A DNA stretch of 64,000 nucleotides from Alphaproteobacteria bacterium (GTDB lineage Bacteria > Pseudomonadota > Alphaproteobacteria > Sphingomonadales > JAKSBY01). The position numbers were made by a program, and so were the translations under genes. Of the stretch, positions 20,833 to 62,270 are shown piece by piece; position 1 is the stretch's first letter; each line of letters starts with the position of its first letter. A model generated the notes under the pieces. That model was not told the DNA's origin. It did no database searches and saw nothing but the letters and a program-made list of their open reading frames with translations. Where the stretch lies: positions 1 to 64,000 of the forward strand of contig JAJFIV010000031.1 of NCBI GenBank assembly GCA_021774625.1. Reading direction: 5' to 3'.

Positions 20833-22332
20833 ATGCTTCACCGCGCCATACCAGTTTTACTCATGCTTTTGATCGCACCCGTCCCCGCCTACGCCGGTGA
20901 GGAAAAGAAAGCCGAGCCGATTCCGGACCCAGAGGTTTTTACAAGCGATCATCAGGGCCGCTTTAACGGGACAGCGGTGCGCTATAGCGTGACGGCGGGA
21001 GAGACTTACCTGAAAGACGATAAAGGCGCGCCCAAAGCCTCAATCTTTTCCTTTGCCTATACCCGGAGCGGCGCAGATGCCGCCGGCCGTCCCGTGACCT
21101 TTGTCTGGAACGGCGGACCGGGCTCCTCCTCGGTCTGGCTGCATATGGGGGCGTTCGGGCCCAAACGGGTTCTGGTGCCGTCCGACGCCGAAGACGCGGG
21201 CCTGCCGCCCTATGGTAGCGAGGATAACGGTCTGGCGCTTCTGGATGTTACGGATCTTGTTTTCGTCGATCCTGTTGGCACCGGCTTCAGCCGGGCGCTC
21301 GGCACTCATGAAGGTAAGGAGTTCTGGAGCCTTGAGGGCGATACCGGTTCCATTTCGCAATTTATCCGGCAATGGCTCAGCGCTAATAAACGCTGGAATT
21401 CGCCGAAATATCTGCTCGGTGAAAGTTTCGGGACCACCCGTGCGGCGGCGGTGGCAGGCGAACTGGAAGGCAACAATCCGACCGTGCGCCTCAACGGCCT
21501 GATCCTGGTCTCGCAAGCGCTGGATTATACCGGCTCGACGCCGTCCCATGACAATTTCATCGCCTATGTGACCTATCTGCCGTCACTTGCACTGGCGGCC
21601 CGTTATCATGGCAGGGCCGGGCAGGGAAAATCGGTCGAGGAATTCGCCGAAGAAGCCCGGGACTTTGCCTATAACCAGTATGCCGCGGCCCTGTTGAAGG
21701 GGAACCTGCTGGATGAGGGAGAAAGGCAGCGGATTGCCGAGCGCCTCGCCTATTTCACCGGGCTTGACCGGGATTATATCCTCAGCGCCGATCTTCGCAT
21801 TCTGACCGGGCGGTTTGTCAAGGAACTGCTGCGAACGGACGGGCTTTCCATCGGCCGGCTTGACGGCCGCTATAAAGGTGATGATATCGACGACGTTTCT
21901 GACCGGGCCGAAGCCGATTATGCCAGCGCCGCCATCGGGGCGGCCTATACGGCCATGCTCAACCAGTATATGGCGGGTGATCTCGGCATCACCATCGACC
22001 GGTCCTATAATATTTCCAACGGGGATATTGGCCGCAACTGGATCTGGCGGTCTGCGCCGGAGGGCTCTTTCTGGGAGCCGGAATATGTCAATGTCGCCCG
22101 CACGCTGTCGGAAGCTATGCGTCTCAATCCTTCCATGAAGGTGCTGGTCACCAATGGCTATTACGACCTGATCACCCCCTTTTTCGATGCTGAATACACC
22201 TTCGCCCGCCATGGCATCCCGAAAGACCGGATCAAAATGACCTACTATGAAGCCGGCCACATGATGTATGTCCACCAGCCGTCTTTCGAGAAGCTGATGC
22301 AGGATGTGCGGGCGTTTATTGGTTCTGAATAA
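20833..22332 (+). CDS. S10 family serine carboxypeptidase-like protein, copy 2
   Basis: WNGGPGSSSVWLHMGAFGPKRVLVPSDAEDAG ... LLGESFGTTRAAAV ... YYEAGHMMYVHQPS; collinear with copy 1. Confidence 0.9.
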   Translation: MLHRAIPVLLMLLIAPVPAYAGEEKKAEPIPDPEVFTSDHQGRFNGTAVRYSVTAGETYLKDDKGAPKASIFSFAYTRSGADAAGRPVTFVWNGGPGSSSVWLHMGAFGPKRVLVPSDAEDAGLPPYGSEDNGLALLDVTDLVFVDPVGTGFSRALGTHEGKEFWSLEGDTGSISQFIRQWLSANKRWNSPKYLLGESFGTTRAAAVAGELEGNNPTVRLNGLILVSQALDYTGSTPSHDNFIAYVTYLPSLALAARYHGRAGQGKSVEEFAEEARDFAYNQYAAALLKGNLLDEGERQRIAERLAYFTGLDRDYILSADLRILTGRFVKELLRTDGLSIGRLDGRYKGDDIDDVSDRAEADYASAAIGAAYTAMLNQYMAGDLGITIDRSYNISNGDIGRNWIWRSAPEGSFWEPEYVNVARTLSEAMRLNPSMKVLVTNGYYDLITPFFDAEYTFARHGIPKDRIKMTYYEAGHMMYVHQPSFEKLMQDVRAFIGSE

Positions 22333-22367: not shown

Positions 22368-23783
22368 CTAAATTACCTTTCCCGGATTCATCAGGCCTTG
22401 GGGGTCGAGAGCGGCTTTGATGGTGCGCATCATCGCGATTTCGACCGGGGATTTATAATGGGCGAGTTCAGCACGTTTGCGGCGGCCGATGCCGTGCTCG
22501 GCAGCGATTGTGCCGCCCATTTCCACAGTGATGTCATGGACGATGCGGTTGATCTTCTCCCAGCGGGCGAGGAAGGCGGCTTTGTCCATATTCTTCGGCT
22601 GGGAGAGGTTGAAATGGACATTGCCGTCGCCGGCATGACCGAAGGCGACGGGGCGCATGCCGGGAAGCGCCTGTTCCACCGCCTTCGAGGCCGCCGCAAT
22701 GAATTCCGGAATTTTCGAGGGCGGGACGGCGATGTCGTGCTTGATGCTGCCGCCTTCCTGTTTCTGGGCTTCCGAGATGCTCTCCCGCAAACGCCAGAGG
22801 GCGCCGCGCTGCTGTTTGCTCTCGGCAAGTGCGGCGTCCCGCAGCAGTCCGCGCTCCAGCGCATCGGCAAGGCTCTCTTCCAATTTACCGCGCAGGTTCG
22901 CATTTTTATCGGGGCTTGCCAGTTCGGCCAGCGCATACCAGGGGTGTTCGTCAGCCAGCGGATCGCGGGTGTCCGGGATATGATCCAGCACCATCTGAAG
23001 GGCAATGCGCGGGATAAGTTCAAAAGCAATGACCGTATCGCCGCTTAGCTCCCGCAGCCGGGCGAGCAGGTTAACCGCCGCCTCCGGACTTTCGATGGCG
23101 ATAAAGGCGGTTTCCGTCTGTTTCAGGGTCGGAAACAGCTTGAGGGTCGCCTTGGTCACAATGCCAAGGGTGCCTTCTGCGCCGATAAAAAGCTGTTTCA
23201 GGTCATAGCCTGCCGTGTCCTTGCGCAAGGCTTTCAGGCCGTTCCAGATTTCGCCATTGGGCAGCACCGCCTCGATCCCCAGCACCAGATCGCGCATGGT
23301 GCCGTATTTCAGCACATGCACCCCGCCCGCATTGGTCGCGATATTGCCGCCAATCTCGCAGGACCCCTCGGCGGCAAGGCTGAGCGGAAACAGCCGGTCT
23401 GCGTTCCGCGCTGCGTCCTGCACCGCTGCCAGCGTCGCCCCGGCCTCTACCGTGATGGCGTAATCAAGCGGATCAATGGAAAGAATTTTGTTCATACGGG
23501 AGGTTTTGATCAGCACCTGATCCCCCGCCTCCGACGGGATCGCGCCGCCGACCAGTCCGGTATTCCCGCCCTGCGGCACCATGGCCATGCCTGCATCGGC
23601 GCAGATTTTCACCACCGCCGCCAGTTCTCCGGCATTCTCCGGCATCACTACAATGGGCGTCATCCCCTGATACGCATCCCGCCATTCCGCCAGATGCGGC
23701 GCCATCAGCCGGATATCCACCATATACCCCTTGGGTCCGACGGCGTCTTTGATGGCGGCGATGATGGTGGGAAGGTTAGTCAT
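22368..23783 (-). CDS. FAD-binding oxidoreductase (D-2-hydroxyglutarate / D-lactate dehydrogenase type)
   Basis: VPQGGNTGLVGGAIPSEAGDQVLI ... GEIGGNIATNAGGVHVLKYGTMRDLVLGIEAVLPNG ... EHGIGRRKRAEL (EIGGN as read: CEIGGNIATNAGG). Confidence 0.9.
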   Translation of the reverse strand: MTNLPTIIAAIKDAVGPKGYMVDIRLMAPHLAEWRDAYQGMTPIVVMPENAGELAAVVKICADAGMAMVPQGGNTGLVGGAIPSEAGDQVLIKTSRMNKILSIDPLDYAITVEAGATLAAVQDAARNADRLFPLSLAAEGSCEIGGNIATNAGGVHVLKYGTMRDLVLGIEAVLPNGEIWNGLKALRKDTAGYDLKQLFIGAEGTLGIVTKATLKLFPTLKQTETAFIAIESPEAAVNLLARLRELSGDTVIAFELIPRIALQMVLDHIPDTRDPLADEHPWYALAELASPDKNANLRGKLEESLADALERGLLRDAALAESKQQRGALWRLRESISEAQKQEGGSIKHDIAVPPSKIPEFIAAASKAVEQALPGMRPVAFGHAGDGNVHFNLSQPKNMDKAAFLARWEKINRIVHDITVEMGGTIAAEHGIGRRKRAELAHYKSPVEIAMMRTIKAALDPQGLMNPGKVI

Positions 23784-24562
23784 TAGAAAACATCTACAAG
23801 ACTTTTGCGGGATTGTTCTGATGGCAGCATTTTATTAGCTGCTACACCCAGGAATGCGGCAAATAGCACAAGAAAGGCGGCGTTAGTGATTATCGTATAG
23901 TATTCTAATAATTGTGCCATATGTTCAACGCCCCATAGACTGATAAATATAGCGGTAGAAATGCTGCTCAGTGTTGTGGAAATATAACTGCCGAGTATGA
24001 TTGCCAGCATCCACCAGATTGCTTTCCGAACTTTTTTTCTTAGATACAGCCATTGCACCACACCTGAAAAAACAGGGGCTAGCACTAGGCCGAAAATATA
24101 CAAAATGTAAAAGGCTTGCAGATTTGCGCCTGTTCCTAAATTAGGCCGACCTCTAAGTAGCCATGACGGTCCATCAGCCATTATCATTTGTAGCGCAAAT
24201 GTGATTGCACAAATTAAGCCGAAATTCATAATATTGAATGAAGCTCCAAGGCGGCGAAAACCAAGTGAAATGGCAATAGGATAGCCAATGGCAGACTGAA
24301 GGACGGCTATTAAAAAGGATAGTAAGTATTTGCCTGGGTCAGGCTGTAAAGGTTGATAAACTGGGATCTTAACAAAATCGAACAAAAAATCGACAATATA
24401 GACAGTTAAAACTACTATGGCAGTCCATTCTAGAATACGAAAAATACCACGCCGGGGTGCTATTCTAGGCCAGGATTCAGTTTTCTGAATATCTTCTAAT
24501 AGAATCTCTTCCTGTGTACTTTCTGGGAGTATCAGATCCAGAAATGAACCCTCCTTGCTCAT
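23783..24562 (-). CDS. Predicted multi-pass membrane protein, function unknown, AT-richer than neighbours
   Basis: 259 aa with several hydrophobic spans; by eye the codons are more A/T-rich than in flanking genes. Confidence 0.65.
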   Translation of the reverse strand: MSKEGSFLDLILPESTQEEILLEDIQKTESWPRIAPRRGIFRILEWTAIVVLTVYIVDFLFDFVKIPVYQPLQPDPGKYLLSFLIAVLQSAIGYPIAISLGFRRLGASFNIMNFGLICAITFALQMIMADGPSWLLRGRPNLGTGANLQAFYILYIFGLVLAPVFSGVVQWLYLRKKVRKAIWWMLAIILGSYISTTLSSISTAIFISLWGVEHMAQLLEYYTIITNAAFLVLFAAFLGVAANKMLPSEQSRKSLVDVF

Positions 24563-38529: not shown

Positions 38530-38796
38530 CTAGAGTCTTTTCGGAATAGATTGACCCATTTGACCGGGATGATTTTGGACTGTGGCAAGGCGTCTTTCCG
38601 AAACCGATGCGGCGCATCGGCGAGGGAAGGCAACGCAGCCACAGCCCAAAAGCACCCGGCCTCGGGTGACCGGAGAGGGCCGCCCGGCTGCGTTGCGGCC
38701 TTTGCCCGATGCGCCGCATCGCGCTGCAGGCCGCGCCTGACCGAACAGCCCTCTCCAGCCATCAAATTGCGTCAATCTATTCCGAAAAGGCTCTAG
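38530..38796. mobile_element. MITE-like non-autonomous element (267 bp), IS630-related
   Basis: TIRs CTAGAGTCTTTTCGGAATAGATTGAC (38530-38555) and the reverse complement of 38771-38796, CTAGAGCCTTTTCGGAATAGATTGAC, match at 25/26. Inner inverted repeats are concentric. The left end is homologous to the IS630 remnant at ~6501-6582. Confidence 0.85.
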
Positions 38797-39653
38797 CCGG
38801 CCCGGTTCGGGGTGAAAACTTCAAACGGATTGCCGGGACCGGGCAGCCAGCTTTCCAGATGCGCCAACTTTGCCGGATCGCCGGTGGTCAAATAACGGAT
38901 GGCACGAGGAGATATTTCCGCCGTACTGAATTCCGGATGGCGGCGGATATAGTCAGCCAGCGCATCGGCTACCAGCGCGGGCTGGGATAATATCTCCACA
39001 TGCCCAGGCAGAGCTTTTCGAAACAAATCCTCAACCAGCGGAAAATGGGTGCAGCCGAGAACGGCGCTGTCGATATGCCCGCCGGGCGCCTGTGCCAGTA
39101 ACCGGCCGGCAAGGCTTTGAATGATGGCAAAGAGTGCGGCTGCGCTCTCGCCCTCTTCAATGGCGGCGACCAGTCCGGGACAGGCCTGTTCCACCATCCG
39201 GCAGTGCGGGGCATGTTTCTGCATTTCCTCCCGGTAGGACTGGCTTTCGATGGTTTTTGATGTGCCGAAAAGCCCGACGGTTTTTTTCCCGCCTCTCTGA
39301 TCCACGGGCAGGGGCGGCATCCGCCAGCGCACGCCCGACAGGGCTTCAACGACCGGGACGATCACTCCCAGAATGCGGCGATCCGGATAATGCGCCGGCA
39401 GCCAGTCCTGCTGAAGAGTCCGGGCAGCGATGGCAGCAGCCGTATTGCAGGCAAGAATAACAAGTCGACAGCCATGTTGAAACAGGCCGTCCACCATTTC
39501 CATGGTGTAATTGACAATGTCCTTGTTATCCCGGTCGCCATAAGGGGCACGGGCATGGTCGCCAAGATAAAGAAAGGACTGGTCCGGCAACCGCCGGGTG
39601 CATTCCCTGAGGATGGTCAAGCCGCCCGAGCCGGAGTCAAAAATACCAATCAT
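38793..39653 (-). CDS. murI: Glutamate racemase
   Basis: MIGIFDSGSGGLTILRECTRRLPDQSFLYLGDHARAPYGDR ... VILACNTAAAIAARTLQ ... VLGCTHFPLVEDLF. Confidence 0.96.
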   Translation of the reverse strand: MIGIFDSGSGGLTILRECTRRLPDQSFLYLGDHARAPYGDRDNKDIVNYTMEMVDGLFQHGCRLVILACNTAAAIAARTLQQDWLPAHYPDRRILGVIVPVVEALSGVRWRMPPLPVDQRGGKKTVGLFGTSKTIESQSYREEMQKHAPHCRMVEQACPGLVAAIEEGESAAALFAIIQSLAGRLLAQAPGGHIDSAVLGCTHFPLVEDLFRKALPGHVEILSQPALVADALADYIRRHPEFSTAEISPRAIRYLTTGDPAKLAHLESWLPGPGNPFEVFTPNRAG

Positions 39654-39670: not shown

Positions 39671-40702
39671 CTAAACCCGCACACTGCAGCGCCGGATCAG
39701 TTCGAAAAAGCCGGACATTTCCGCCTCAAATTCCAGCATGGTGATATTTTCCGTATCCAGAAAGCGAGTGAGTTCAAAAACGGAGGCGCCGCGCCGGTTA
39801 AAGCCGGGTTTGGTCGTAGTAGCAGTTTTGATACCCATTCTGGTCAGCCATGGCAGCTGTTCGCTGGTATATTCGCCGCTGGGATAGCAGAAATGCACCA
39901 GCGGCCGGCCGGTGATCCGGCGGAGTACTGTACGGTTATCCTCGATTTCCTTTTCCGCCGCCGCAAAATCTTTATCCGGAAAATGGTGACGGTGCGTGTG
40001 AAGCTGAAGATCAATCCCCATATCGAGGCATTGCCGGGCTTCCGTTTCCGTCATGAAAGAGATAATCCGTTCCCTTTCAAGGGCGGCCCAGTCCTGACCA
40101 AGATGCCCGGCAAGTCTGCGGAACAATGTCTGCCGGTCGGCCGCGCTTTCAAGTTTATTGCCATAATCAGTTAACAGGGACCAGGCCTGATCGCGCTCAT
40201 CGCGGTTTTTCAGATCAAAGCGGCCGGTCAAATCATCGGCAACATGCGGCATCTCCAAAATCCGCCCTCCGCCCTTCCATAATAGATAGGCAACGGCCAT
40301 GTTAAAGACCTGAGTCTGTTTTTCGAGATAATAACTGGCGACATACAACGTGGCCGGGAAGCCGTGGCGCCGCAGCGCCGGGGCCATACAGGTATAAGTA
40401 CCGTACCAGCCGTCATCAATGGTGATGGCTGTGGCGCATGGCGGCAACGTTCCTGTTTCAAACGCTTCAATTGCTTCGCCAAGCGCAAGGACGGGATAAT
40501 TTTTATCTGCCAGAAATTTAAGGCGGGCCTCAAAACTTTCCCGCGTCATATAAAGATTGGGCCGGAACAGGCTTTCATCGCCAACAGCGCCACCATGATA
40601 GCAGAGAATGCGCAGATCCTTTGCCGTCAATTTACGGGCAAGTACAAACAGGCCTGTTACTTTGGCAATCCGCAAAATCAGAAAAAGGACGGTTTTTTTC
40701 AC
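39671..40702 (-). CDS. Polysaccharide deacetylase (NodB-like)
   Basis: LRILCYHGGAVGDES ... TAITIDDGWYGTYTCMAPALRRHGFPATLYVASYYL ... LQLHTHRHHFP. Confidence 0.88.
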   Translation of the reverse strand: MKKTVLFLILRIAKVTGLFVLARKLTAKDLRILCYHGGAVGDESLFRPNLYMTRESFEARLKFLADKNYPVLALGEAIEAFETGTLPPCATAITIDDGWYGTYTCMAPALRRHGFPATLYVASYYLEKQTQVFNMAVAYLLWKGGGRILEMPHVADDLTGRFDLKNRDERDQAWSLLTDYGNKLESAADRQTLFRRLAGHLGQDWAALERERIISFMTETEARQCLDMGIDLQLHTHRHHFPDKDFAAAEKEIEDNRTVLRRITGRPLVHFCYPSGEYTSEQLPWLTRMGIKTATTTKPGFNRRGASVFELTRFLDTENITMLEFEAEMSGFFELIRRCSVRV

Positions 40703-47903: not shown

Positions 47904-49151
47904 CTATAATTTAGCGATCCAGCGGCGATGCGGCTGGGTGTGTGTGTAGATCGGATTCCGCGCCATTTGCTTTAAGGTTTGCCGCAGTCCGCCGTCAATC
48001 AGGCCTTTGCCGTGCATCTGCAGAAAACCGATCGCCCCGAGATCATTCACTTCAAGCAAAACCGGCCCCTGACCGGTAAAGGCAACGTCCCAATGCTGGA
48101 TGCGCATCAATGGAAAGAGATGCGAAGCGGACTTTATGGCTTTAAGCGCATTGTTCCAGTCGGGAAGGGTAAAGCCATCCAGTTTTGCAATAGGGTGGTT
48201 CTTCCATGCCGGTAGAGCGGCTTCCGGCCAAAAGGCCGCCAGGGGCTCTACGGCTTTTCCCGTTGCAATATCGATACGCGCCACCCAATTGCCGGTTTTC
48301 CCGCCGCTGAAATTGTCGTTGTGGTTTTTCCCGGCGGCAATTTTCCAGATCGCGGCCGCTATCCTCGGGGCACTTTCCTCCTGGCAAAGCACGACCCGCG
48401 CCCCGGATATTGATGAGGATCCGGTCGCGCGCCGGATATCCGGATGGGGAACCAGGATATCCTGAAAAATCCAGCCGCATTTCTTGCGGAAATAAGCATC
48501 GTCCGGGCGGGTCATTTGTGCAATCAGGCTGTCAATAGGGAGAATTTCTATATTCGATGTGCGGACAGCATCTTTTCCGGGCAGATATTCCAGGCAGACA
48601 TGGGAATCCATCCCTTGCTGGCTGAAAGCAGCTTTCAGATAGAACGGGTAAGACGCCGGGTCACATAAAAACTCCTTAAGCGCCTGGTCATTTGTTAATG
48701 CCGTTACGCCGGGAATCCAGGCATCGCCGACTCTAAAACAGGCTTTGGCCGGGGGTGTTGGCAGCCCTTTCGAACGCATGATCGTTTCAAATGCCAGTTT
48801 GTCCCACGCAGGATTCACGCCCTTGCGGTCATTCAGCGCTAAATTAACGGCATTCTCAAGACGCCAGCCCAAATAATTTTTAATGCTTTCCGGCTGTTCG
48901 CGAAATGTCCGGTAAAGACGATAGGCAAAGTAATCCGTAATGCCCACATTATAGCGGCCGAACTTCAGGCGTATCATGTCCAGCGCCTGCTGGCTGACCG
49001 GCGCCCCTTCCAGATTTTTGGTCTGAACCATGCGCCGCGCTAGTTCTCGCACCCGGGTGAGCACTGCATAAATCCTTTTATAAACCGAGTTCGGGATTTT
49101 GGGCCCGGAAGACCGCGTCTGTTCTGGCTTTTTTGCGGCGGGTTTCGGCAT
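47904..49151 (-). CDS. ATP-grasp-fold protein, sugar-transfer-associated type, subfamily A copy 1
   Basis: NPAWDKLAFETIMRSKGLPTPP ... YPFYLKAAFSQQGMDSH ... IWKIAAGKNHNDNFSGGKTGNWVARIDIATG ... RIQHWDVAFTGQGPVLLEVNDLG. Confidence 0.8.
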   Translation of the reverse strand: MPKPAAKKPEQTRSSGPKIPNSVYKRIYAVLTRVRELARRMVQTKNLEGAPVSQQALDMIRLKFGRYNVGITDYFAYRLYRTFREQPESIKNYLGWRLENAVNLALNDRKGVNPAWDKLAFETIMRSKGLPTPPAKACFRVGDAWIPGVTALTNDQALKEFLCDPASYPFYLKAAFSQQGMDSHVCLEYLPGKDAVRTSNIEILPIDSLIAQMTRPDDAYFRKKCGWIFQDILVPHPDIRRATGSSSISGARVVLCQEESAPRIAAAIWKIAAGKNHNDNFSGGKTGNWVARIDIATGKAVEPLAAFWPEAALPAWKNHPIAKLDGFTLPDWNNALKAIKSASHLFPLMRIQHWDVAFTGQGPVLLEVNDLGAIGFLQMHGKGLIDGGLRQTLKQMARNPIYTHTQPHRRWIAKL

Positions 49152-50229
49152 CTGACAGAGCCTGCTTCATGCGATCATTGAACAGTCCACACCGACCGGC
49201 AAGCTGAATTAAATGAATATCGGCATCTGTATTAACTTCAATCACGACCGGGCCCTTATCGGTAAAAGCGATGTCCCAGTGCTGTAATCCAAGACCTTGG
49301 AAATTCACGGCTGCCCGGCAGCATTGATCAATAAGATTTTTCCACCCGGGTAATTTGTGACCCTTAATCCTTTTGTCCGTATCCGGATGGATAGCGGTTT
49401 CCCGGTACTGTTCTCCGATACCGCTGATGATGCGTTTAATTGCGCCTGTTTCAATGTCAATCCATCCCAGCAGGTTGCCATTTTTACCCATGGAGAAATT
49501 ATCGGTCATATTCTTGCCGGTTCCGATTTTCCAGAACGCGCAAAATATGTAAGGGTTCCCGGCATTCAGCATAATCATCAGTCTGACGCATGAGACCGTC
49601 GAGCCGATGAACGCGCTTATGCCGCTGTCTTGCTGCAGCACTTTCTGAACCAGCATCCCATCATAAGGCGAAAAATCAAGCATTTGCCGCAAATGTCTAA
49701 CAGACAAAACAGTGTCATTGCCCAAACGCCAGGATTGGATATCCGGGTCATACTGTTTGATCAAAAATGACGATCGGCCGTAGGTTCCTGCGTTGGGTTT
49801 CATAAAAACCGGGTACTGCACCTCATCCTGCAAGTGGCGGATGAAGGCGTCCGGGTCTGAGAAAACCGGCTCGCCGCCAACCCGTCTTCGGGCAGAGCTA
49901 TAAAGAGCGACCATTTCCGGTATGGGGACCGCCAGTGATTTCAGGAACCTGTAGCAGAGTATTTTGTCATTTGCGGCAGCGAGCCAATGCGAATCATTGA
50001 GAGACCTGTCTATGGCAACATTCTTTTTCCATCCCATGAAATCCTCAGGCCTGCCAGAATCCAGCGCATCGCTTTCATATAATCTGAGATCAAAATAGTC
50101 GCTCGGTCCGACTTGACCTTCACATCGGCATAAATATGCTATTTCCCTGATTTGGCTGATGATTCCCTTGCCGGATACGATTTTTGCGTATTTCGCCCTC
50201 TTCAATAACTGAACTATTCGCGCAAGCAT
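49078..50229 (-). CDS. ATP-grasp-fold protein, subfamily A copy 2
   Basis: QYPVFMKPNAGTYGRSSFLIKQ ... FWKIGTGKNMTDNFSMGKNGNLLGWIDIETG ... LQHWDIAFTDKGPVVIEVNTDADIHLIQ. Confidence 0.8.
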   Translation of the reverse strand: MLARIVQLLKRAKYAKIVSGKGIISQIREIAYLCRCEGQVGPSDYFDLRLYESDALDSGRPEDFMGWKKNVAIDRSLNDSHWLAAANDKILCYRFLKSLAVPIPEMVALYSSARRRVGGEPVFSDPDAFIRHLQDEVQYPVFMKPNAGTYGRSSFLIKQYDPDIQSWRLGNDTVLSVRHLRQMLDFSPYDGMLVQKVLQQDSGISAFIGSTVSCVRLMIMLNAGNPYIFCAFWKIGTGKNMTDNFSMGKNGNLLGWIDIETGAIKRIISGIGEQYRETAIHPDTDKRIKGHKLPGWKNLIDQCCRAAVNFQGLGLQHWDIAFTDKGPVVIEVNTDADIHLIQLAGRCGLFNDRMKQALSDAETRRKKARTDAVFRAQNPELGL

Positions 50230-50349
50230 AGGGTTTGGATTTCGCTCTGTCTGAGAATTGGGGACTGTATTTTTAGCCTAATTCAGAATATCTTATATCA
50301 GCTTAACAGATTTATCTAACGTAATGGTTACCAACCGCGAGAGGCAAAA

Positions 50350-51336
50350 ATGAGGCAAATATATTTTTTAATGCTCTTTTGTGGCGGGCTGTCCATTGCT
50401 GGCGCAGCGGCCGTTGCGGATACGCTTATTGTCGGCAACAAAGGGGTCGATACAGTCAGCTTCATCGATCTTGAAACGGGCGCGGAGATTGCGGAGGTTA
50501 AATCCGGCAATGCCCCCCATGAGGTAGCGGTCCGGAAGGATGGCCGGATCGCAGTTGTCGTGAATTATGGGGCAAACAGCGTGGATGTTTATGCTGTGGC
50601 CAGTGCTTCCCATGTAAAATCCATCTCACTCGGCCGGCATTCCCGTCCCCATGGCATTCTGTGGCTGCCGGACCAGAAACACGTGGCGATCACCACGGAA
50701 GGGAGCCGGCATCTGGTCGTGGTGGATGTGGAAGCGGGCGCAGTGGTGAATGCCATTGCGACCGGCCAGCGGTCATCCCATATGGTTGCCGTCAGTCCAG
50801 ACGGCAGCCGGGCATTTGTCGCCAATATTGCTGCGGGCACGTTTACGGCGATTGATCTGAAGAAGGGCGTCAAACTCCGTGATATAAAGGCCGGTGATGA
50901 CCCGGAAGCGATTGCGGTGACACCCGACGGACGGGAGGTCTGGGTCGGCAACAATGGGTCGCACAATGTTATGGTTTATGATGCGGAGACACTGGAACGA
51001 AAGGCCGTCATTAAGACGGGGCGGACACCGATCCGGGTACAAATCAGCCCGGACGGTCAATACGCGGTCACCGCCGATATCGGCGATGGACATCTCAGTG
51101 TGATCGATACGGCCGCCAAAAAAATTATCCGTACGGTTGCGCTGGATGGCGGCGAAGGGACCCCGCGGCCGGTCACGCTCCTGTTTCAGCCGGATGGCAC
51201 GCGGCTGTTCGCGGCCCTGCCGTCGCTAGCCCGGGTTGCCATCATCGATACGGCGAGCTGGCGGCAAACGGGTCTGCTCACGGCAAAGCCCGGCTCGGAT
51301 GGCCTCGGCTATTCGCCCCTGAATATAACGCGTTAA
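50350..51336 (+). CDS. Secreted YVTN/YncE-like beta-propeller protein
   Basis: Signal peptide; repeats such as SHMVAVSPDGSRAFVANIAAGTFTAIDLKKG, PEAIAVTPDGREVWVGNNGSHNVMVYDAETLE, PIRVQISPDGQYAVTADIGDGHLSVIDTAAK. Confidence 0.9.
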   Translation: MRQIYFLMLFCGGLSIAGAAAVADTLIVGNKGVDTVSFIDLETGAEIAEVKSGNAPHEVAVRKDGRIAVVVNYGANSVDVYAVASASHVKSISLGRHSRPHGILWLPDQKHVAITTEGSRHLVVVDVEAGAVVNAIATGQRSSHMVAVSPDGSRAFVANIAAGTFTAIDLKKGVKLRDIKAGDDPEAIAVTPDGREVWVGNNGSHNVMVYDAETLERKAVIKTGRTPIRVQISPDGQYAVTADIGDGHLSVIDTAAKKIIRTVALDGGEGTPRPVTLLFQPDGTRLFAALPSLARVAIIDTASWRQTGLLTAKPGSDGLGYSPLNITR

Positions 51337-51339
51337 AGC

Positions 51340-52503
51340 TTATATCCGGTTGATCCATGATTTATGGTCCCTGGCATAGAGATAGACGGGATTTTTGGAA
51401 ATATTCCGTAAGGTCTTTCGCAATCCGTCATCAATTATGCCCATACAATGGATCTGCGGCAGGTCGCCCAAGTCATTCACTTCCAATAAAACGGGCCCCT
51501 TATCGGTTAGGGCCAGATCCCAATGCTGTATCTTCATCAAGGGGAAAGAGGAAGATGCGGTTTTCACGCATTCCTTCGCCAGTTCCCAATCCGGCAGTAT
51601 GAAACCATCCAGCCTGGCAATGGGGTGAGCCTTGAACGCAGGATCGGCGGCGTGAGGCCAGGCCGCACATTTCGGTTCAATGACCGTTCCGGACGCGGTG
51701 TCGATCTTCGAGACCCAATTTCCGGATTTTCCTTTACTGAAATTGTCATTATAGTTTTTGCCCGTGGCAATTTTCCATACGGTATAGGAGATGCGGGGTG
51801 TGTTTTCTTCCCGGAAGACCACAATGCGCGCGCTTGAGATAGCCGTACCGCCCGTGGCTTCGCGAATGGCCGGGTGAGGCCGGAGGACGTCCTGAAACAA
51901 CCAGCCGCAGGCTTTTCTAAAATAGGGCCCGTCAGCGCGGGTCAGTCTCTCAATGAGGGTTTCAACACCAAGCTTTTCTTCCGCCGCCATGCGAATCATG
52001 TCGGTTTTCGGGTCATAATCCAGACAGGCAAAGGAATTTTTCCCCTGCTGGCTGTAAGCGGCTTTAAGGTAAAAAGGATAGGAAGCCGTTGTTCGCAAAA
52101 ACGCGCCCAGCCCGGCGCGGTCTGTCAGATCGGCCATCCCCTCTATTCCGGCGCCTCCTGGCTTATAGACCGCCTTTAATGGCGGAGTAGGCAGGCCGCG
52201 GGCGCGCATCAGAGTTTCAAATGCCAGTTTATCCCATGCCGCCGTAACGCCGTTGCGTTCATTGAGGAGATAACTGATGGCAAGCTGATATCTCCATCCC
52301 AGATAATCTCTTACCTTTTCCGGCCGGGTACGGAAAATATGATATATCCTCTGGGAATAATAATCGGATATGCCGATATTATAACTGCCGAGCAGAATCC
52401 GTATAAGATCGATGATCTGGTGCGTGTAGGAAACGTCCTCCAGTTTCTTCGTGAGGGCCATTATTCCTGTCTGTTTTTTTATTTTAGAAAACATCGCGTG
52501 CAA
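51340..52503 (-). CDS. ATP-grasp-fold protein, subfamily A copy 3
   Basis: TAAWDKLAFETLMRARGLPTPPLKA ... YPFYLKAAYSQQGKNSF ... VWKIATGKNYNDNFSKGKSGNWVSKIDTASG ... IQHWDLALTDKGPVLLEVNDLGD; close to copy 1. Confidence 0.8.
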   Translation of the reverse strand: MHAMFSKIKKQTGIMALTKKLEDVSYTHQIIDLIRILLGSYNIGISDYYSQRIYHIFRTRPEKVRDYLGWRYQLAISYLLNERNGVTAAWDKLAFETLMRARGLPTPPLKAVYKPGGAGIEGMADLTDRAGLGAFLRTTASYPFYLKAAYSQQGKNSFACLDYDPKTDMIRMAAEEKLGVETLIERLTRADGPYFRKACGWLFQDVLRPHPAIREATGGTAISSARIVVFREENTPRISYTVWKIATGKNYNDNFSKGKSGNWVSKIDTASGTVIEPKCAAWPHAADPAFKAHPIARLDGFILPDWELAKECVKTASSSFPLMKIQHWDLALTDKGPVLLEVNDLGDLPQIHCMGIIDDGLRKTLRNISKNPVYLYARDHKSWINRI

Positions 52504-52601
52504 ACCTGACTGAACAGGGCAGTGTCCGGGCAGTCTAGAACAAAGACTGTTTATCGGCGGTTAAGCCGGCTGGAAAATCTTCGATTGAAACCTGATCCTG
52601 G

Positions 52602-54008
52602 TCAGTCCGCGCTGTCCGCCACTTCAAATTCCAGTTCCTGCAGTTGTGGCAGGGCCTTGAGTTGATCTGTAATCTCGGTCAGATCGCCGACCACCACCAG
52701 GGTCATATCCTGATCCCGCAAATAGCTGTTGGCCGCTTCTGAAACGGCTGCCGGTGTGACGGCCTTGATGGCCCCCACATAATTTTCCATGTCCGCCAGC
52801 GGCCTGCCATGCCGGTCAAGTGTCGCCAGCTGATCGAGAAGCCCGCCGCGGCTGGCGGAGCGCAGGACAAAGATACCGGCCATGTAATTCTTGAACCCGG
52901 TGATTTCCGCCGCATCCGGTGCGGTCGCCTGCAACCGGTCAATCTCGGCGAAGATTTCGGTCAGTGCCGGACCTGTGGCCTCGGTCGTCACGTCGGCGAT
53001 CTCCACCCAGTGGCTGGCGCCAACATAATCATTAAGAGTGGCCCGGGGAGAATATGTATAGCCTTTATCCTCCCGAATATTGCTGGTGATACGGGACGAA
53101 AAAGCACCGCCCAGCAGGGTGTGCGTTAACTCGAGCGCGGGCCGCCCTTCCGCGCTGACAGCGGGAACCGGCAGACCAAGATAAAGCGTGGATTGCGGCG
53201 CACCCGGCCGGTCAATCAGCTTCACCCGCATCTGTGCTTTTGGCGCCGGTGGATTTTTCAGGCCCTGCGGTCCGGCCGGCCAGTCCAGATAGGCTTCCTC
53301 GATGGCGCGCATGATCCGGCCGCTTTCAAACCGCCCGATCACAAAAAGATGGGTGCGCGCAGCGCCGAAATTGGCGTTATAAAAGTCCCTCACATTCTGC
53401 AGACTGTAGGATTGCAGAAGATCCGGCGCCGGATAAGGGTGGCCATAGGGATGATCACCATAGATCATTTCCGAAAAAGCCAGATTGGCGAGCGGCTGCG
53501 GCTGGCTGAGCGTGACCGAAAGATCGCGCAGAAAATCGCTCTTGATGCGGTCAAACTCGCTTTCCGGCAAAGTCGGATGCATCAGCACCTGACCGATGAG
53601 ATGAGTGGCTGAAGCAGAAAATTCGGAAAGCGCATCAATGGAAATAACCGTCTGGTCCGCGCCTACGGTGACAGTGAAATCACCGCCGATTTCCGCCGCC
53701 CAGAGAGCAAGCTCGGCCCCTCCCGCCTTGGCGGTCCCCTGTTTCATCATTTCGCCTGTCAAATCGGCGAGCCAGGTTTGATCCCCTTCGTCCAGATTGC
53801 CTGTCTTGACGACGGCGGCAATAGTCACTTTGGGGACGGCGCCAAAGGGCACAAAGGTCACTTTCAGGCCGTTGTCGAAACTCATCGTTTCCATGGGCGG
53901 CAGGGTGAAATCCTTTGGCTCCGCCGGCGGGGGCGGCAATTCCTGCGCCAGTGCGGCATTGAGTGAAAAACCGGCGAGGGCCGCTATGAGGATGGTAAGT
54001 TTTTTCAT
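52602..54008 (-). CDS. M16 peptidase family protein, apparently non-catalytic (no HxxEH)
   Basis: M16-like fold residues (SSRITSNIREDKGYTYSPRATLNDYVGASHWVEI), but the HxxEH position reads DLTGEMMKQGTA. Confidence 0.88.
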   Translation of the reverse strand: MKKLTILIAALAGFSLNAALAQELPPPPAEPKDFTLPPMETMSFDNGLKVTFVPFGAVPKVTIAAVVKTGNLDEGDQTWLADLTGEMMKQGTAKAGGAELALWAAEIGGDFTVTVGADQTVISIDALSEFSASATHLIGQVLMHPTLPESEFDRIKSDFLRDLSVTLSQPQPLANLAFSEMIYGDHPYGHPYPAPDLLQSYSLQNVRDFYNANFGAARTHLFVIGRFESGRIMRAIEEAYLDWPAGPQGLKNPPAPKAQMRVKLIDRPGAPQSTLYLGLPVPAVSAEGRPALELTHTLLGGAFSSRITSNIREDKGYTYSPRATLNDYVGASHWVEIADVTTEATGPALTEIFAEIDRLQATAPDAAEITGFKNYMAGIFVLRSASRGGLLDQLATLDRHGRPLADMENYVGAIKAVTPAAVSEAANSYLRDQDMTLVVVGDLTEITDQLKALPQLQELEFEVADSAD

Positions 54009-54021
54009 GATTCCTCTCCCC

Positions 54022-55404
54022 TTAAGACGCTGCGGACGGTTTGACCGCCAGCACTGTGCGGTTGGTGGGCCGGAGATATTTCTCCACGGTTTTCTGCATC
54101 AGTTCCGGCGTAACCTTTTCAAAGTCTTCTTCCAGCCGGTTGATACGGCCGGGATCATCATCGAACAGCGCGAACGCCGCCAGCATGTCCACCAGCCCAA
54201 AGCGTGTGGCGGAACCCACCGTATCGTAAAAACCCGAACGCAGCTTGGTTTTCGCCCGCATGATATCTTTTTCCGTGAAGGGCGTGGTGCGAACCTGTTC
54301 GATCACGGCGTCGACATCGGCGAGAATTGTATCCGCGCTATGGGTCGGGTCATGGATCAGGGCGCCCATCCAGAGCATAGGGCCATTGTAATTGAACATA
54401 TTGCCCAGCATGTTGATGCCGCCGAAAACCGATGAGGCATAGCCTTTTTCTTTCACCAGCTTTTGATGCAGAAGACTATCTTCACCCTGCAGCAGCAGAA
54501 TGTCCAGAAGCCCCATGGCGAAATATTCCGGCGTGTTGCGTTCGGGGACATGGTAGGCAAAGGCAAGCGCCGGTTGCGGCGCCAGCGCATCCTCTTTTTC
54601 AAAACGTTTTTCCACTTCCTGCCGGGGTTCGGAAAGGTCGGCTGGCGCAGGCAGTTCGCGGGCCGGAATATCGCCGAAATAGTCTTCGATCCAGGCCAGG
54701 GTCTGGATCGGATCAATATCGCCGGCCACCACCAGCACCGCATTGTTGGGTGAATAATAGGTGTCAAAGAATGATTTGACATCTTCCAGTGTGGCGGCAT
54801 CCAGATCGTCAAGGTCGCCATAAAAATTATGGGCATTATACCAGTTCTCATTGGCATATTGCGGCATATCCAGCCACGGGAAACCGCCATAGGGCTGGTT
54901 CAGGACATTGACTTTCACTTCGTTCTTCACCACGCCCTGCTGGTTTTCCAGGTTCGCCTGGGTGAGATCGAGAGCCGTCATGCGGTCCGCCTCCACCCAG
55001 AGAATCGTCTCGGTCACATTCGAAGGCACCACCTCGAAATAATTGGTGAAATCGAACCGGGTCGAGCCGTTATTGACGCCGCCATTGCCTTCAATCAGCT
55101 TATCAAACTCGCCTTTGGGCAGATTCGCTGATGCCTGAAACATCATATGTTCGAACAGATGGGCAAAGCCGGTGCGGTTCTGGGGTTCGATCCTGAAGCC
55201 AATATTATAATAAACGCCGATCGTCGTGGTCGGCACGCTGTGGTCTTCGGACAGGACAATACGCAAACCGTTATCCAGCTTATGGTATGAGACCGGCACT
55301 TCGAAGCGCTCAATTTCCCGCCGCTCCGGCGTCCCCTCGGTACAGGCGGTGAGAAAAAGTGCCGCAACGCCGGCAAGGACGGCAGGCCGCAAGTCCATTT
55401 GCAT
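54022..55404 (-). CDS. M16 zinc metallopeptidase, catalytic type
   Basis: RTGFAHLFEHMMFQASANLPKGEF (HxxEH) with a downstream ENQQGVVKNEV glutamate; N-terminal lipobox-like FLTAC. Confidence 0.93.
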   Translation of the reverse strand: MQMDLRPAVLAGVAALFLTACTEGTPERREIERFEVPVSYHKLDNGLRIVLSEDHSVPTTTIGVYYNIGFRIEPQNRTGFAHLFEHMMFQASANLPKGEFDKLIEGNGGVNNGSTRFDFTNYFEVVPSNVTETILWVEADRMTALDLTQANLENQQGVVKNEVKVNVLNQPYGGFPWLDMPQYANENWYNAHNFYGDLDDLDAATLEDVKSFFDTYYSPNNAVLVVAGDIDPIQTLAWIEDYFGDIPARELPAPADLSEPRQEVEKRFEKEDALAPQPALAFAYHVPERNTPEYFAMGLLDILLLQGEDSLLHQKLVKEKGYASSVFGGINMLGNMFNYNGPMLWMGALIHDPTHSADTILADVDAVIEQVRTTPFTEKDIMRAKTKLRSGFYDTVGSATRFGLVDMLAAFALFDDDPGRINRLEEDFEKVTPELMQKTVEKYLRPTNRTVLAVKPSAAS

Positions 55405-55585
55405 CGCTGTCGCTCCCTATTTATTATTAGATTAATTCCGCCGATATATTACGGATTTTTTCCAATTTTCCAAGTTCCTTTAAAAAAATAGCAATTTAGA
55501 GTCAGGGGTCACTTATGGAGTAAAGTGCGTTTTCATGCGTTTTATGCTAAGTGATAAAATAAAATATCCCGTTGGGAGCCAGTTC

Positions 55586-56650
55586 ATGAAACGACTTTGG
55601 ATGTATTTTCAGGAAATGCGACGGCACGCAAAAAACGGCCATTTGCCGGTGTGGCGGCAATTTCTTGAAATATGTCTTTTGTGGATTTTTCATCGCGTCG
55701 GTCCCGGTATTTACATGGAAGCGCGTCTTTGGCGGCGTGACATTCCCTTCAGTGAAAAGCGGCTCCATATGCACGAACAGGCTTACGCCAAGGCCGTGGA
55801 AAAACGGAATGACTACCGGTACCGGAAACTCTCGGAAAACAAGCTGATCGATAAAGCGGTCTTGTCGCTTTACGGGATTCCGACCCCCAGATTTTACGGG
55901 CATCTTAATCCGCTGCGCGGGGTAACATTTGACGGCCGGCCGCTGACCGGGCCGGCCGAGCTTGAGGCGCTCATCAGAAGACATTCCCTCGGCAAGCTCT
56001 GCTTTAAGCTGACAGAAAGTTATCACGGTCAGGGCTTCTGCGCGGCGGAATGCCTGCACAAGGGAGAGGCGGTTCTTTTGCGGCCATTATTTCAGGAAGC
56101 AACCTATGCGGTGGCGGAATTTTGCCGCGACGTGCTCAGTTTTCACGAGCGGACAGACTATCTGATCGAACAGTATCTGGAGCAGGATCCATGGTTTAAG
56201 GCTTATAACCCTACCAGTCTCAACACATTGCGGGTTCATGCTGCGTGGCGCGATAATGATGCCGCGCCCCGGGTTCTGGACGGGATGTTTCGGATGGGCA
56301 ATAAAGGGGCCCTGATCGACAGCACCCGGCGCGGCGGGCTTTTTGCCAAAATATACGCGGAAACCGGAACCCTGGGGCCGGGATATATCTCGACGGACAA
56401 GGATCATATCACTTATTCCCACCACCCGGATAATGGCCTTCCCCTGGAAGGCGTAAAAATACCCGGCTGGGAAAATACGAAAGAGTTGGTTTGCAAGGCT
56501 TTGCTTCTGTATCCTGAAACCAGGCTGATTGCCTTCGACATCGCCATGGGCCTGGACGGACCATATGTCATAGAAACCAACCTCAGGCCAGGCAGGCCCG
56601 GCCCGGCGCTGCTTAGAATTCCGGCCTGGCAATTGGCGAAACCCAGATGA
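55586..56650 (+). CDS. ATP-grasp-fold protein, subfamily B copy 1
   Basis: GPGIYMEARLWRRDIPFSEK ... NKLIDKAVLSLYGIPTPRFYG ... LCFKLTESYHGQGF ... NPTSLNTLRVHAAW ... DIAMGLDGPYVIETNLRPGRPG. Confidence 0.75.
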   Translation: MKRLWMYFQEMRRHAKNGHLPVWRQFLEICLLWIFHRVGPGIYMEARLWRRDIPFSEKRLHMHEQAYAKAVEKRNDYRYRKLSENKLIDKAVLSLYGIPTPRFYGHLNPLRGVTFDGRPLTGPAELEALIRRHSLGKLCFKLTESYHGQGFCAAECLHKGEAVLLRPLFQEATYAVAEFCRDVLSFHERTDYLIEQYLEQDPWFKAYNPTSLNTLRVHAAWRDNDAAPRVLDGMFRMGNKGALIDSTRRGGLFAKIYAETGTLGPGYISTDKDHITYSHHPDNGLPLEGVKIPGWENTKELVCKALLLYPETRLIAFDIAMGLDGPYVIETNLRPGRPGPALLRIPAWQLAKPR

Positions 56651-56669
56651 TCTTATCGGAGGTTAGGGA

Positions 56670-57746
56670 ATGCTCGGTAAAATAGCCGGCATGATTTCGG
56701 AAATGCGAGCCCGCAGTGATGAAGGGCATTTACCGGTGTCCGAACAAATGCGCGAGATGTTCACACTTTGGCGTATTAACAAGATCGGGCCGGGTTATTA
56801 TATGAAAGTCGGGTTGTGGCGCCGTGACATACCTTGGGCCGATAAGCTCGATTATGTGCTGGAAAGGGAATATATCCGGCGGCTCAAACTGCGCAATCCG
56901 ATACTCTATCATATCATGACCAAGAATAAATTCGCCGACAAGGCCATTCGCACCCTCTTCCATATCCCAACGCCGGACTATTGGGGGCTTTATCACCCCC
57001 GACGGGGCCATGATTTTGAAGGCAAACCGTTATGCAATGCGGAAGATATCGAACGTGTGATCCGCCGCAAGGCTTTTGGCCGCTTTTGCATCAAGTCGCT
57101 GGAGGAATATGGCGGAGCAGGCTTTGTGGCTGTTGAGAGCCAGGAACAGGATGGCCGGCTGATGTGCCGAAAGATTGAGAATGCGACATGGCAGCCCTTA
57201 TCGGCTTTCTGCCGGGATCATCTTAACGACACAGGAGTGCATGGAGTCCTGATCGAACAATATATAAAACAGCACCCTTGGTATAAGGCCGTCAACCCGA
57301 CCAGTGTGAATACGCTCCGCATCTATACTGTCTGGTATGACGATAAGAAGGAACCGGAGGTCATTGGCGGAATCTTTCGTTTTGGCCGGGCCGGTTCCGC
57401 TGTGGATAATACAGAAGCTGGCGGTATGTATGCGGGCATTGATCCGGAAACCGGCCGGCTCGGATCGTTGCGGTCCAAAACCAGTTTCACAAAGAGCGTG
57501 GGCCCCTCGCATCCTGACAGCGGGGTGAAACTGGAAGGCGAAATCCTGCCGCGCTGGGATGAGGCGAAAGCCCTGGCAACCGATGCCATCAAATGTATTT
57601 TTGGCATGCGGGCCATCGGCTTTGATGTGGCGTTTTCCGTTGACGGTCCGCTGATCGTGGAAGCCAGTGAGCGGGCCAATTATCTGGGTCTGGTGGCGAC
57701 CGGAATCCCGCCCGGCCGGTTTGCCCGGGCCACATCGAAACCTTAA
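56670..57746 (+). CDS. ATP-grasp-fold protein, subfamily B copy 2, variant metal-site motif
   Basis: GPGYYMKVGLWRRDIPWADK ... NKFADKAIRTLFHIPTPDYWG ... FCIKSLEEYGGAGF ... NPTSVNTLRIYTVW ... DVAFSVDGPLIVEASERANYLG. Confidence 0.72.
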   Translation: MLGKIAGMISEMRARSDEGHLPVSEQMREMFTLWRINKIGPGYYMKVGLWRRDIPWADKLDYVLEREYIRRLKLRNPILYHIMTKNKFADKAIRTLFHIPTPDYWGLYHPRRGHDFEGKPLCNAEDIERVIRRKAFGRFCIKSLEEYGGAGFVAVESQEQDGRLMCRKIENATWQPLSAFCRDHLNDTGVHGVLIEQYIKQHPWYKAVNPTSVNTLRIYTVWYDDKKEPEVIGGIFRFGRAGSAVDNTEAGGMYAGIDPETGRLGSLRSKTSFTKSVGPSHPDSGVKLEGEILPRWDEAKALATDAIKCIFGMRAIGFDVAFSVDGPLIVEASERANYLGLVATGIPPGRFARATSKP

Positions 57747-57763
57747 GCGAGGAGTGAGGCATT

Positions 57764-58693
57764 ATGACGATTTTGCAAGACAGAGTGAACAACGCCTTCG
57801 AAAAACTTGCGGCCGGCTTTTCGACTGCCTGCCCGGATGTACAGGTCGCAGAACTGGTCAAGGACTATGCCCGCTACCTGTCTCATCTTCCGATCGACGC
57901 CCATTTCAAATGGATTGATCCCGAAGCTTTGAAAATTGCCGCGGCCATCAAGGAAAAACACGGAATTACAGCTTATTATATGCTCAACAAGCTGGTACTC
58001 ATCCGGATGATGGAGGACTGGAACCCGGACAGGTCACCCGTCAAGCTGCCGCCTTCCATCACCGGACTCTATCCCGGCCAGTTTGAACGCATCCTTGATC
58101 AGATGGCGGAAAATGAAGACGGTTATTACGATCTTTCCAATGATCCGTTCATGAAGGATATGGGCATTCTTTGTTTCCGCCTTATCACGCATGGCTCCCG
58201 GCTGATGGAGCCATATTCCGGCATGTCCCGGAAGACGCTCCTCAGGCAGGGTCTGGCTGGAGGATTAAAAGCGGCCTGGTTCTTTTATGTTCGGATGAAG
58301 GGCTTTAAACCTTTTTTCGAAAACCACACTCATCCCAAAATGCTGCTGGAATTCAATGCGGAAGGATTTGCCAAATCCTACCACCGCATTGCCGATACAT
58401 TGGCGCTTAATCCGGAAATCAAGGGTCTGATGGGTGGCGCGTGGTTTCTCGATCCCGTTGTGCCCACCATGAATCCGCATCTCAGTTATATCCGGGATGT
58501 TTTGCTCGAAGGTGGTGCGGAATTCTTCTATGGCGGCACCGATCAGGGCGTGATCAATTCGGCCACCGCCACCTCTAAAACCCGCCGCCGCATGTATGAG
58601 GAAGGCAAATACATGCCCGCCGCCTATTTCTTCGTCTGGCCGCGGGAAAATCTGATCCAATGGTCAAAGGATCACCCGGAATTGCGGGGCTGA
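57764..58693 (+). CDS. Protein of unknown function, probably cotranscribed with the subfamily B ATP-grasp genes
   Basis: 309 aa ORF starting 17 bp after the preceding stop on the same strand; no family recognised. Confidence 0.75.
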   Translation: MTILQDRVNNAFEKLAAGFSTACPDVQVAELVKDYARYLSHLPIDAHFKWIDPEALKIAAAIKEKHGITAYYMLNKLVLIRMMEDWNPDRSPVKLPPSITGLYPGQFERILDQMAENEDGYYDLSNDPFMKDMGILCFRLITHGSRLMEPYSGMSRKTLLRQGLAGGLKAAWFFYVRMKGFKPFFENHTHPKMLLEFNAEGFAKSYHRIADTLALNPEIKGLMGGAWFLDPVVPTMNPHLSYIRDVLLEGGAEFFYGGTDQGVINSATATSKTRRRMYEEGKYMPAAYFFVWPRENLIQWSKDHPELRG

Positions 58694-61682: not shown

Positions 61683-62270
61683 TTAGATATTCTTTTTTTG
61701 CCAGTTTTGAAACCAAGTTTCATTTTGTATGGCAGTCCGAAAGGGAGTCGTTATGCAAGATGGGGCTCGGGATATGTATTTTGCAGCCTCATGCCGACCC
61801 TTAAAATCAGGATCCTGAAGGTACCGCAGCGCATTTTTTACAGAAAAATTCTCCTTCAATTTTTTATTAAAATTACTTTCCAGACCAGTCCAGACAACAA
61901 CATCATACTTTTTTTCTCCAATCCACTGCTTGATATTGTCTGGGGTATCAGGAGTACCTTCGCGACTACCATCAGCAAAATAGTAGCCGATGCGCTTCAA
62001 TACTGTGCCTTCTCTGCTTCGCAAATCACAAATGGCATCATCCGGGTACTTTCTCCTGCTCAGCGTATACTGAGTTGGGAGTTCTGTTCCATGAGCTTCA
62101 TCAATAACAAGCGTGAGTGCGCCTTTTCTCGTTTCCGATATCCGTGAAAATTCTAGCTTCAGATGAGGGCCACACTTATGCCATTCCGTATGATAATTAT
62201 CGAATTCCAGTCTTTGGTCCCACATCAATGATCCCCATCCGAGAATAGCAATTTTCATAACCTTATCCAT
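61683..62270 (-). CDS. Hypothetical, gamma-glutamylcyclotransferase-like fold suspected; AT-rich accessory gene
   Basis: N-terminal KIAILGWGSLMWD resembles the YGSL motif of GGCT-like proteins; composition is clearly AT-richer than flanks. Confidence 0.55.
   Translation of the reverse strand: MDKVMKIAILGWGSLMWDQRLEFDNYHTEWHKCGPHLKLEFSRISETRKGALTLVIDEAHGTELPTQYTLSRRKYPDDAICDLRSREGTVLKRIGYYFADGSREGTPDTPDNIKQWIGEKKYDVVVWTGLESNFNKKLKENFSVKNALRYLQDPDFKGRHEAAKYISRAPSCITTPFRTAIQNETWFQNWQKKNI

Follow-up and report, generated by a model that had tools for sequence, protein, structure and literature searches.

Five ATPgrasp_ST ligase genes and an associated, putatively GNAT-like family in gaps between core genes of an alphaproteobacterium

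Genes of the locus

The window is a stretch of 64,000 nucleotides from an alphaproteobacterial genome of 3 Mb (contig JAJFIV010000031.1, here C25). An earlier note, made from the letters alone, had placed five ATP-grasp-like ligase genes resembling ATPgrasp_ST proteins within 10 kb of it. All five ORFs are present, and in a profile search with PF14397 (ATPgrasp_ST) they score 78.8-119.2 bits against a curated cut-off of 31.4 bits, with matches that span nearly the whole profile (Table 1). In the whole genome only these five exceed the cut-off, two weak matches elsewhere falling below it. Of the 389 genomes of the class that were searched, no other packs PF14397 genes as densely as this one, which has five in 10 kb interspersed with core genes; tandem PF14397 genes also occur in one genus of the class, which has 3-6 per genome and up to three in 3 kb. 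The ligases are of a known, predicted kind, belonging to an apparently uncharacterised family, and it is the density of new members that is unusual. ATPgrasp_ST is widespread, and in the literature collection searched by the Pfam name no paper was found that names the family. The original description of these amidoligases is reportedly that of Iyer and colleagues in 2009.

The coordinates given previously for the five ORFs, an M16 pair, a YVTN propeller and a 309-aa ORF (U309) hold, as does the B1 start, which agrees with aligned relatives better than the start of the longest ORF does. The start of A1 and its overlap with A2 probably do not. The ATG at 49151 would make A1 overlap A2 by 74 bp, while an in-frame GTG at 49064 is preceded by AAAGGA just past the TAA of A2 and yields an A3-like product of 386 aa. 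This GTG is probably the true start as judged from the sequence, and with it the overlap disappears.

Table 1. Coordinates of the ligase genes, U309 and the deacetylase gene in the window
Feature	Description	Position (strand)	Basis
A1	ATPgrasp_ST ligase	47904..49064 (-), probable start; longest-ORF start 49151	PF14397 78.8 bits; start from sequence and alignment
A2	ATPgrasp_ST ligase, older clade-A member, directly upstream of A1	49078..50229 (-)	PF14397 115.8 bits; tree
A3	ATPgrasp_ST ligase, A1 duplicate (53% identity)	51340..52503 (-)	PF14397 82.6 bits; model like RimK/LysX/Ddl
B1	ATPgrasp_ST ligase, active-site K, D, E, N kept	55586..56650 (+); longest ORF from 55535	PF14397 116.8 bits; alignment
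B2	ATPgrasp_ST ligase, metal-binding Asn replaced (EAS)	56670..57746 (+)	PF14397 119.2 bits; alignment
U309	Undescribed 309-aa family, candidate GNAT-like amino-sugar N-acyltransferase by fold	57764..58693 (+)	Model and Foldseek; 17 bp behind B2
Deacetylase	CE4-type polysaccharide deacetylase	39671..40702 (-)	PF01522 58.5 bits

Other ORFs of the window were recorded in passing. A 195-aa ORF on the minus strand (61683-62270, 42% G+C) has a GWGSLMWD motif and no Pfam match; we take the motif to resemble that of gamma-glutamylcyclotransferase-type proteins, and the neighbouring gene is presumably gamma-glutamyltransferase-like. Another minus-strand ORF (23783-24562, 259 aa), also lacking a Pfam match, has 41% G+C, against values near 61% in the core genes on either side. 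Two S10-type serine carboxypeptidase genes on the plus strand (18645-20150 and 20833-22332), 51% identical, lie beside a radical SAM gene (17077-18618).

Two clades of ligases

The division into a subfamily A with three copies and a subfamily B with two is borne out by pairwise identities and by the tree. A1 and A3 are 53% identical, A2 shares 28-30% with either, B1 and B2 share 39%, and identities between A and B are about 20-25%. In the tree, the A proteins lie inside one clade (support 100/99) and the B proteins form another (100/100), both apart from the class's high-scoring PF14397 clade. A2 is an older branch, and A1 and A3 are duplicates specific to the lineage. Relatives of clade A were found in genomes G040, G221, G152, G454 and G353, and those of clade B in G026, G038, G041, G054 and, outside the class, G598. 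No other genome in the non-exhaustive sample examined has A and B together, which argues against a single obligatory chain of five enzymes.

Ligase cassettes in the core gene order

By comparison with related genomes, A1-A2, A3 and B1-B2-U309 occupy gaps of a core gene order, and ligase-free counterparts are seen for the A1-A2 and B1-B2-U309 sites. In G021 and G042 a CN_hydrolase gene directly follows the M16 pair and a GGT gene stands a few ORFs further on, without B1-B2-U309, and in G001, a genome of the same family as that of the window, just one short ORF separates CN_hydrolase from M16b. PF14397 has no match in G001 and G042, and weak matches in G021 (E about 9e-4). At the other site, G032 keeps the pntB-YVTN neighbourhood without A1 and A2, a cysK-like gene filling the gap. 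Relatives keep M16a-M16b-CN_hydrolase and pntB-YVTN with no ATP-grasp gene there, and this synteny marks both the M16 pair and the YVTN gene as bystanders. M16 trimming and an involvement of the YVTN protein were rejected on this ground. The sequences of M16a, M16b and the YVTN protein begin with export signals, whereas those of the ligases and U309 do not.

The earlier note had read these genes as one dedicated pathway, in which the ligases would add to an envelope scaffold one after another and the result would be trimmed by M16 peptidases. The crowding into 10 kb and the presence of both clades in one genome would fit such a pathway, but its two clades of ligases share no other examined genome, A1 and A3 arose by duplication within the lineage, and the supposed trimming enzymes keep their core neighbours in relatives without the ligases and carry export signals that the ligases lack. 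We therefore regard both the five-step chain and M16 trimming as highly unlikely. Of the neighbourhood proposed to be conserved across genomes (A, B, M16 and the 309-aa gene), one link stood: among the interleaved genes, U309 alone was seen to accompany B, and in the other genomes examined A and B do not occur together. The earlier note had named a lack of co-occurrence of the five genes in other genomes as refuting its proposal, and this outcome speaks against one pathway.

A second explanation is that the locus is an accumulation site, where accessory ligases unrelated to one another came in and were retained independently and have no common function. The insertion gaps are separate and the cassettes lie on different strands, the A and B clades are distinct, and G+C is lower in A2 (0.49), A3 (0.51) and U309 (0.52) than in core genes (about 0.58). 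We consider this reading quite improbable, as a genome of 3 Mb has its full set of five PF14397 genes in 10 kb, B1-B2-U309 are tightly spaced and the B-U309 association is conserved elsewhere.

Fold and active site of the ligases

Structure prediction, which had been suggested as a check of the ATP-grasp fold, agrees with that fold for A3, the ligase that was modelled. The model is of modest confidence (mean pLDDT 68.5), and among PDB structures it is matched best by RimK, LysX and D-Ala ligases (Ddl), with E values down to 7.5e-7. Against PDB sequences, a clade-B profile gave weak RimK matches and a clade-A profile none, and single-sequence PDB searches with A3, B2 and U309 returned nothing useful. 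In the alignment, the ATP- and metal-binding residues (K, K, D, E, N) are kept in A1-A3 and B1, and B2 has EAS in place of the E-x-N of other members. The activity of B2 is doubtful, possibly impaired or altered, because the metal-binding Asn of this motif is lost. In the RimK, LysX and Ddl families, ATP activates a carboxylate, which is then attacked by an amine; by analogy with these families we infer the same chemistry for A and B.

U309 and the CE4 deacetylase

U309 has no match in Pfam, NCBIfam or PDB sequences, profile searches included, and GNAT Pfam profiles gave 0 matches to 17 U309 members at E values up to 1. A model built from 17 aligned sequences is of good quality (pLDDT 88.6). 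Its top Foldseek match is 4mfz (E 2.6e-3, probability 1.00, TM 0.44), with none below E 0.001; the five best matches are all teicoplanin acyltransferase, followed by ordinary GNATs. The model thus weakly suggests a GNAT-like fold. Both the U309 family and its partnership appear to be new.

Among 61 relatives, U309 occurs in three of the five genomes that have B and in none of the 56 others (Fisher p=0.0003, shared ancestry ignored). In an Emcibacter MAG only a few bases separate the U309 and B genes, which are flanked by sppA and glyQ, and in G054, which has both, they are on different contigs. U309 relatives adjoin a CE4 deacetylase gene in Caulobacterales-type loci, 21 of which also lie beside glyQ, in a contig scan that used one pattern and returned almost only Brevundimonas-type relatives. 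One further relative (L056) stands with a deacetylase gene in an EPS locus of the exosortase-A type.

Relatives of the window's deacetylase gene adjoin ATPgrasp_ST genes in two further families of the order. It is 48% identical to the one beside an ATPgrasp_ST gene in G022 and 34% identical to the one in G038, which a B gene follows at a distance of 15 bp. Homologues of the window type are present in all five B-containing genomes and in 12 of 56 others (p=0.001, shared ancestry ignored). The cluster that holds the G038 pair also has sulfotransferase genes and genes like those of glycosyltransferases and flippases, and in G598 the B gene directly precedes a PF13480 GNAT gene inside an exosortase-A EPS locus with its marker genes. 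Two genera (G014 and G057) share a conserved block of a GNAT gene, a CPSase-like ATP-grasp gene, two ATPgrasp_ST genes and a deacetylase-like gene. The direction of the earlier note towards an envelope glycan is in this respect supported, B and U309 being associated with glycan genes in relatives. Against a glycan, no glycosyltransferase gene adjoins the five ligase genes in the window, the exosortase and EPS locus of the genome are on another contig (C7), and clade-A relatives in G040 and G221 have neighbours with no visible glycan link.

A PP-loop family also accompanies ATPgrasp_ST genes among relatives (p=0.0004, shared ancestry ignored); this partner of B was not found in the genome of the window. 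Its members (SGGIDST motif, about 390 aa, weakly like DUF6395/QueC) recur beside B-type ATP-grasp genes, as at L042:10991-13531, L043:4022-5191 and L044:8320-9498. The gap on the glyQ side, often sppA-glyQ, is variously filled in Emcibacter-type genomes, by B with U309, B with the PP-loop gene, or a deacetylase gene, once with a sulfotransferase gene (L041, L044, L153, L154, L156, L157, L160), and Caulobacterales-type genomes likewise have U309 with a deacetylase gene beside glyQ. At L044 a 98-aa fragment of a B-type ATP-grasp gene (10842-11138, minus strand) is situated upstream of an intact B gene, which suggests gene decay at the glyQ site. An Asp/Glu racemase-type gene of the window (38793-39653) was considered as a supplier of D-amino acids and rejected; with 159.7 bits against the TIGR00067 cut-off of 146.65, it is probably an ordinary MurI.

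The same associations bear on a further alternative, in which the product would be a small secondary metabolite, peptide-like or N-acylated, or an N-acyl amino acid signal, instead of a modified glycan. ATP-grasp and GNAT folds are both known in amide-forming pathways of small molecules, several relatives have the PP-loop partner, and the title of a 2011 study by Craig and colleagues, cited in PMC11631085, ties N-acyl amino acid synthases to exosortase systems. The cassettes, however, are not adjoined by genes for carrier proteins or transporters or by any other biosynthetic core gene, and what relatives show instead are deacetylases, sulfotransferases and exosortase EPS genes, so that a small metabolite seems unlikely.

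Proposed role

With moderate confidence, we lean towards the five ligases and U309 being cytoplasmic tailoring enzymes for an envelope polysaccharide, carried as small cassettes in gaps between core genes. The CE4 deacetylase would expose the amine of a precursor amino sugar, and U309 would N-acylate such an amine with acyl-CoA or acyl-ACP as donor. The task of the ATP-grasp enzymes would be to turn a carboxylate, from either an amino acid or a glycan uronic acid, into an acyl phosphate and couple it to an amine, so that an amide forms. The paralogues may differ in donor or acceptor, so that A and B would each add decorations of their own, in parallel, and not be successive links of a single obligatory chain. 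The glycan target, the order of steps and all substrates are those that we infer. A marine exopolysaccharide carrying amide-linked amino acids is known chemically, in a report whose abstract names no enzymes (PMC4663550).

A more specific form of this proposal is tentative and rather doubtful as a whole. U309 might be the founding member of an undescribed acyltransferase family, which, with the CE4 deacetylase and the clade-B ligases, would swap the N-acetyl group of envelope amino sugars for other acyl or aminoacyl groups, and the paralogous ligases would supply a range of swappable decorations, carried as cassettes flanked by core genes, for instance glyQ and sppA. As the five paralogues are confined to one place in a 3-Mb genome with no copies elsewhere, clean deletions are possible, and naming U309 and the deacetylase as partners makes specific guesses about substrates testable.

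Comparison with known systems

RimK and LysX share the predicted ATP-grasp fold of A3, and they suggest another role, the addition of poly-glutamate or amino acids to a protein by RimK- or RloC-like enzymes, on the model of the Pseudomonas rlo operon with its link to osmotic stress (PMC12239564). RimK is the nearest solved fold and there is a weak similarity to TIGR02291 (RloC, alpha-L-glutamate ligase-like), but the five score 15.7-37.6 bits, far below the equivalog cut-off of 314.2, and A and B stand apart from the high-scoring PF14397 clade. The rlo partners, RloA- and RloB-type genes (inactive transglutaminase-7TM and retropepsin genes), were absent among the scanned neighbours, a part of the ORFs, where other families were found. 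This role is accordingly very improbable.

The ligases differ from typical ATPgrasp_ST proteins in forming clades of their own, in having no sugar transferase gene adjacent in the window and, for B2, in the replaced Asn, whereas they resemble them in profile score and in the glycan loci of B relatives (G038, G598). As for exosortase A (XrtA/PEP-CTERM) EPS loci, the cassettes of the window (C25) are off the exosortase contig (C7), but the genome does have an exosortase, and loci of this kind contain B with a GNAT gene in G598 and a relative of U309 in L056. The N-acyltransferases of teicoplanin and A40926 (Orf11*/Tei11, Dbv8) differ from U309 in that identity is only about 10-13%, TM is about 0.4, there is no match at the sequence level and U309 is outside an antibiotic cluster. 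They are nevertheless the best fold match of the U309 model (probability 1.00, 301-332 columns aligned), and U309 relatives too are paired with a deacetylase, just as in teicoplanin-type antibiotics a deacetylase strips the acetyl group of GlcNAc before the acyltransferase acylates the amine (PMC8987122).
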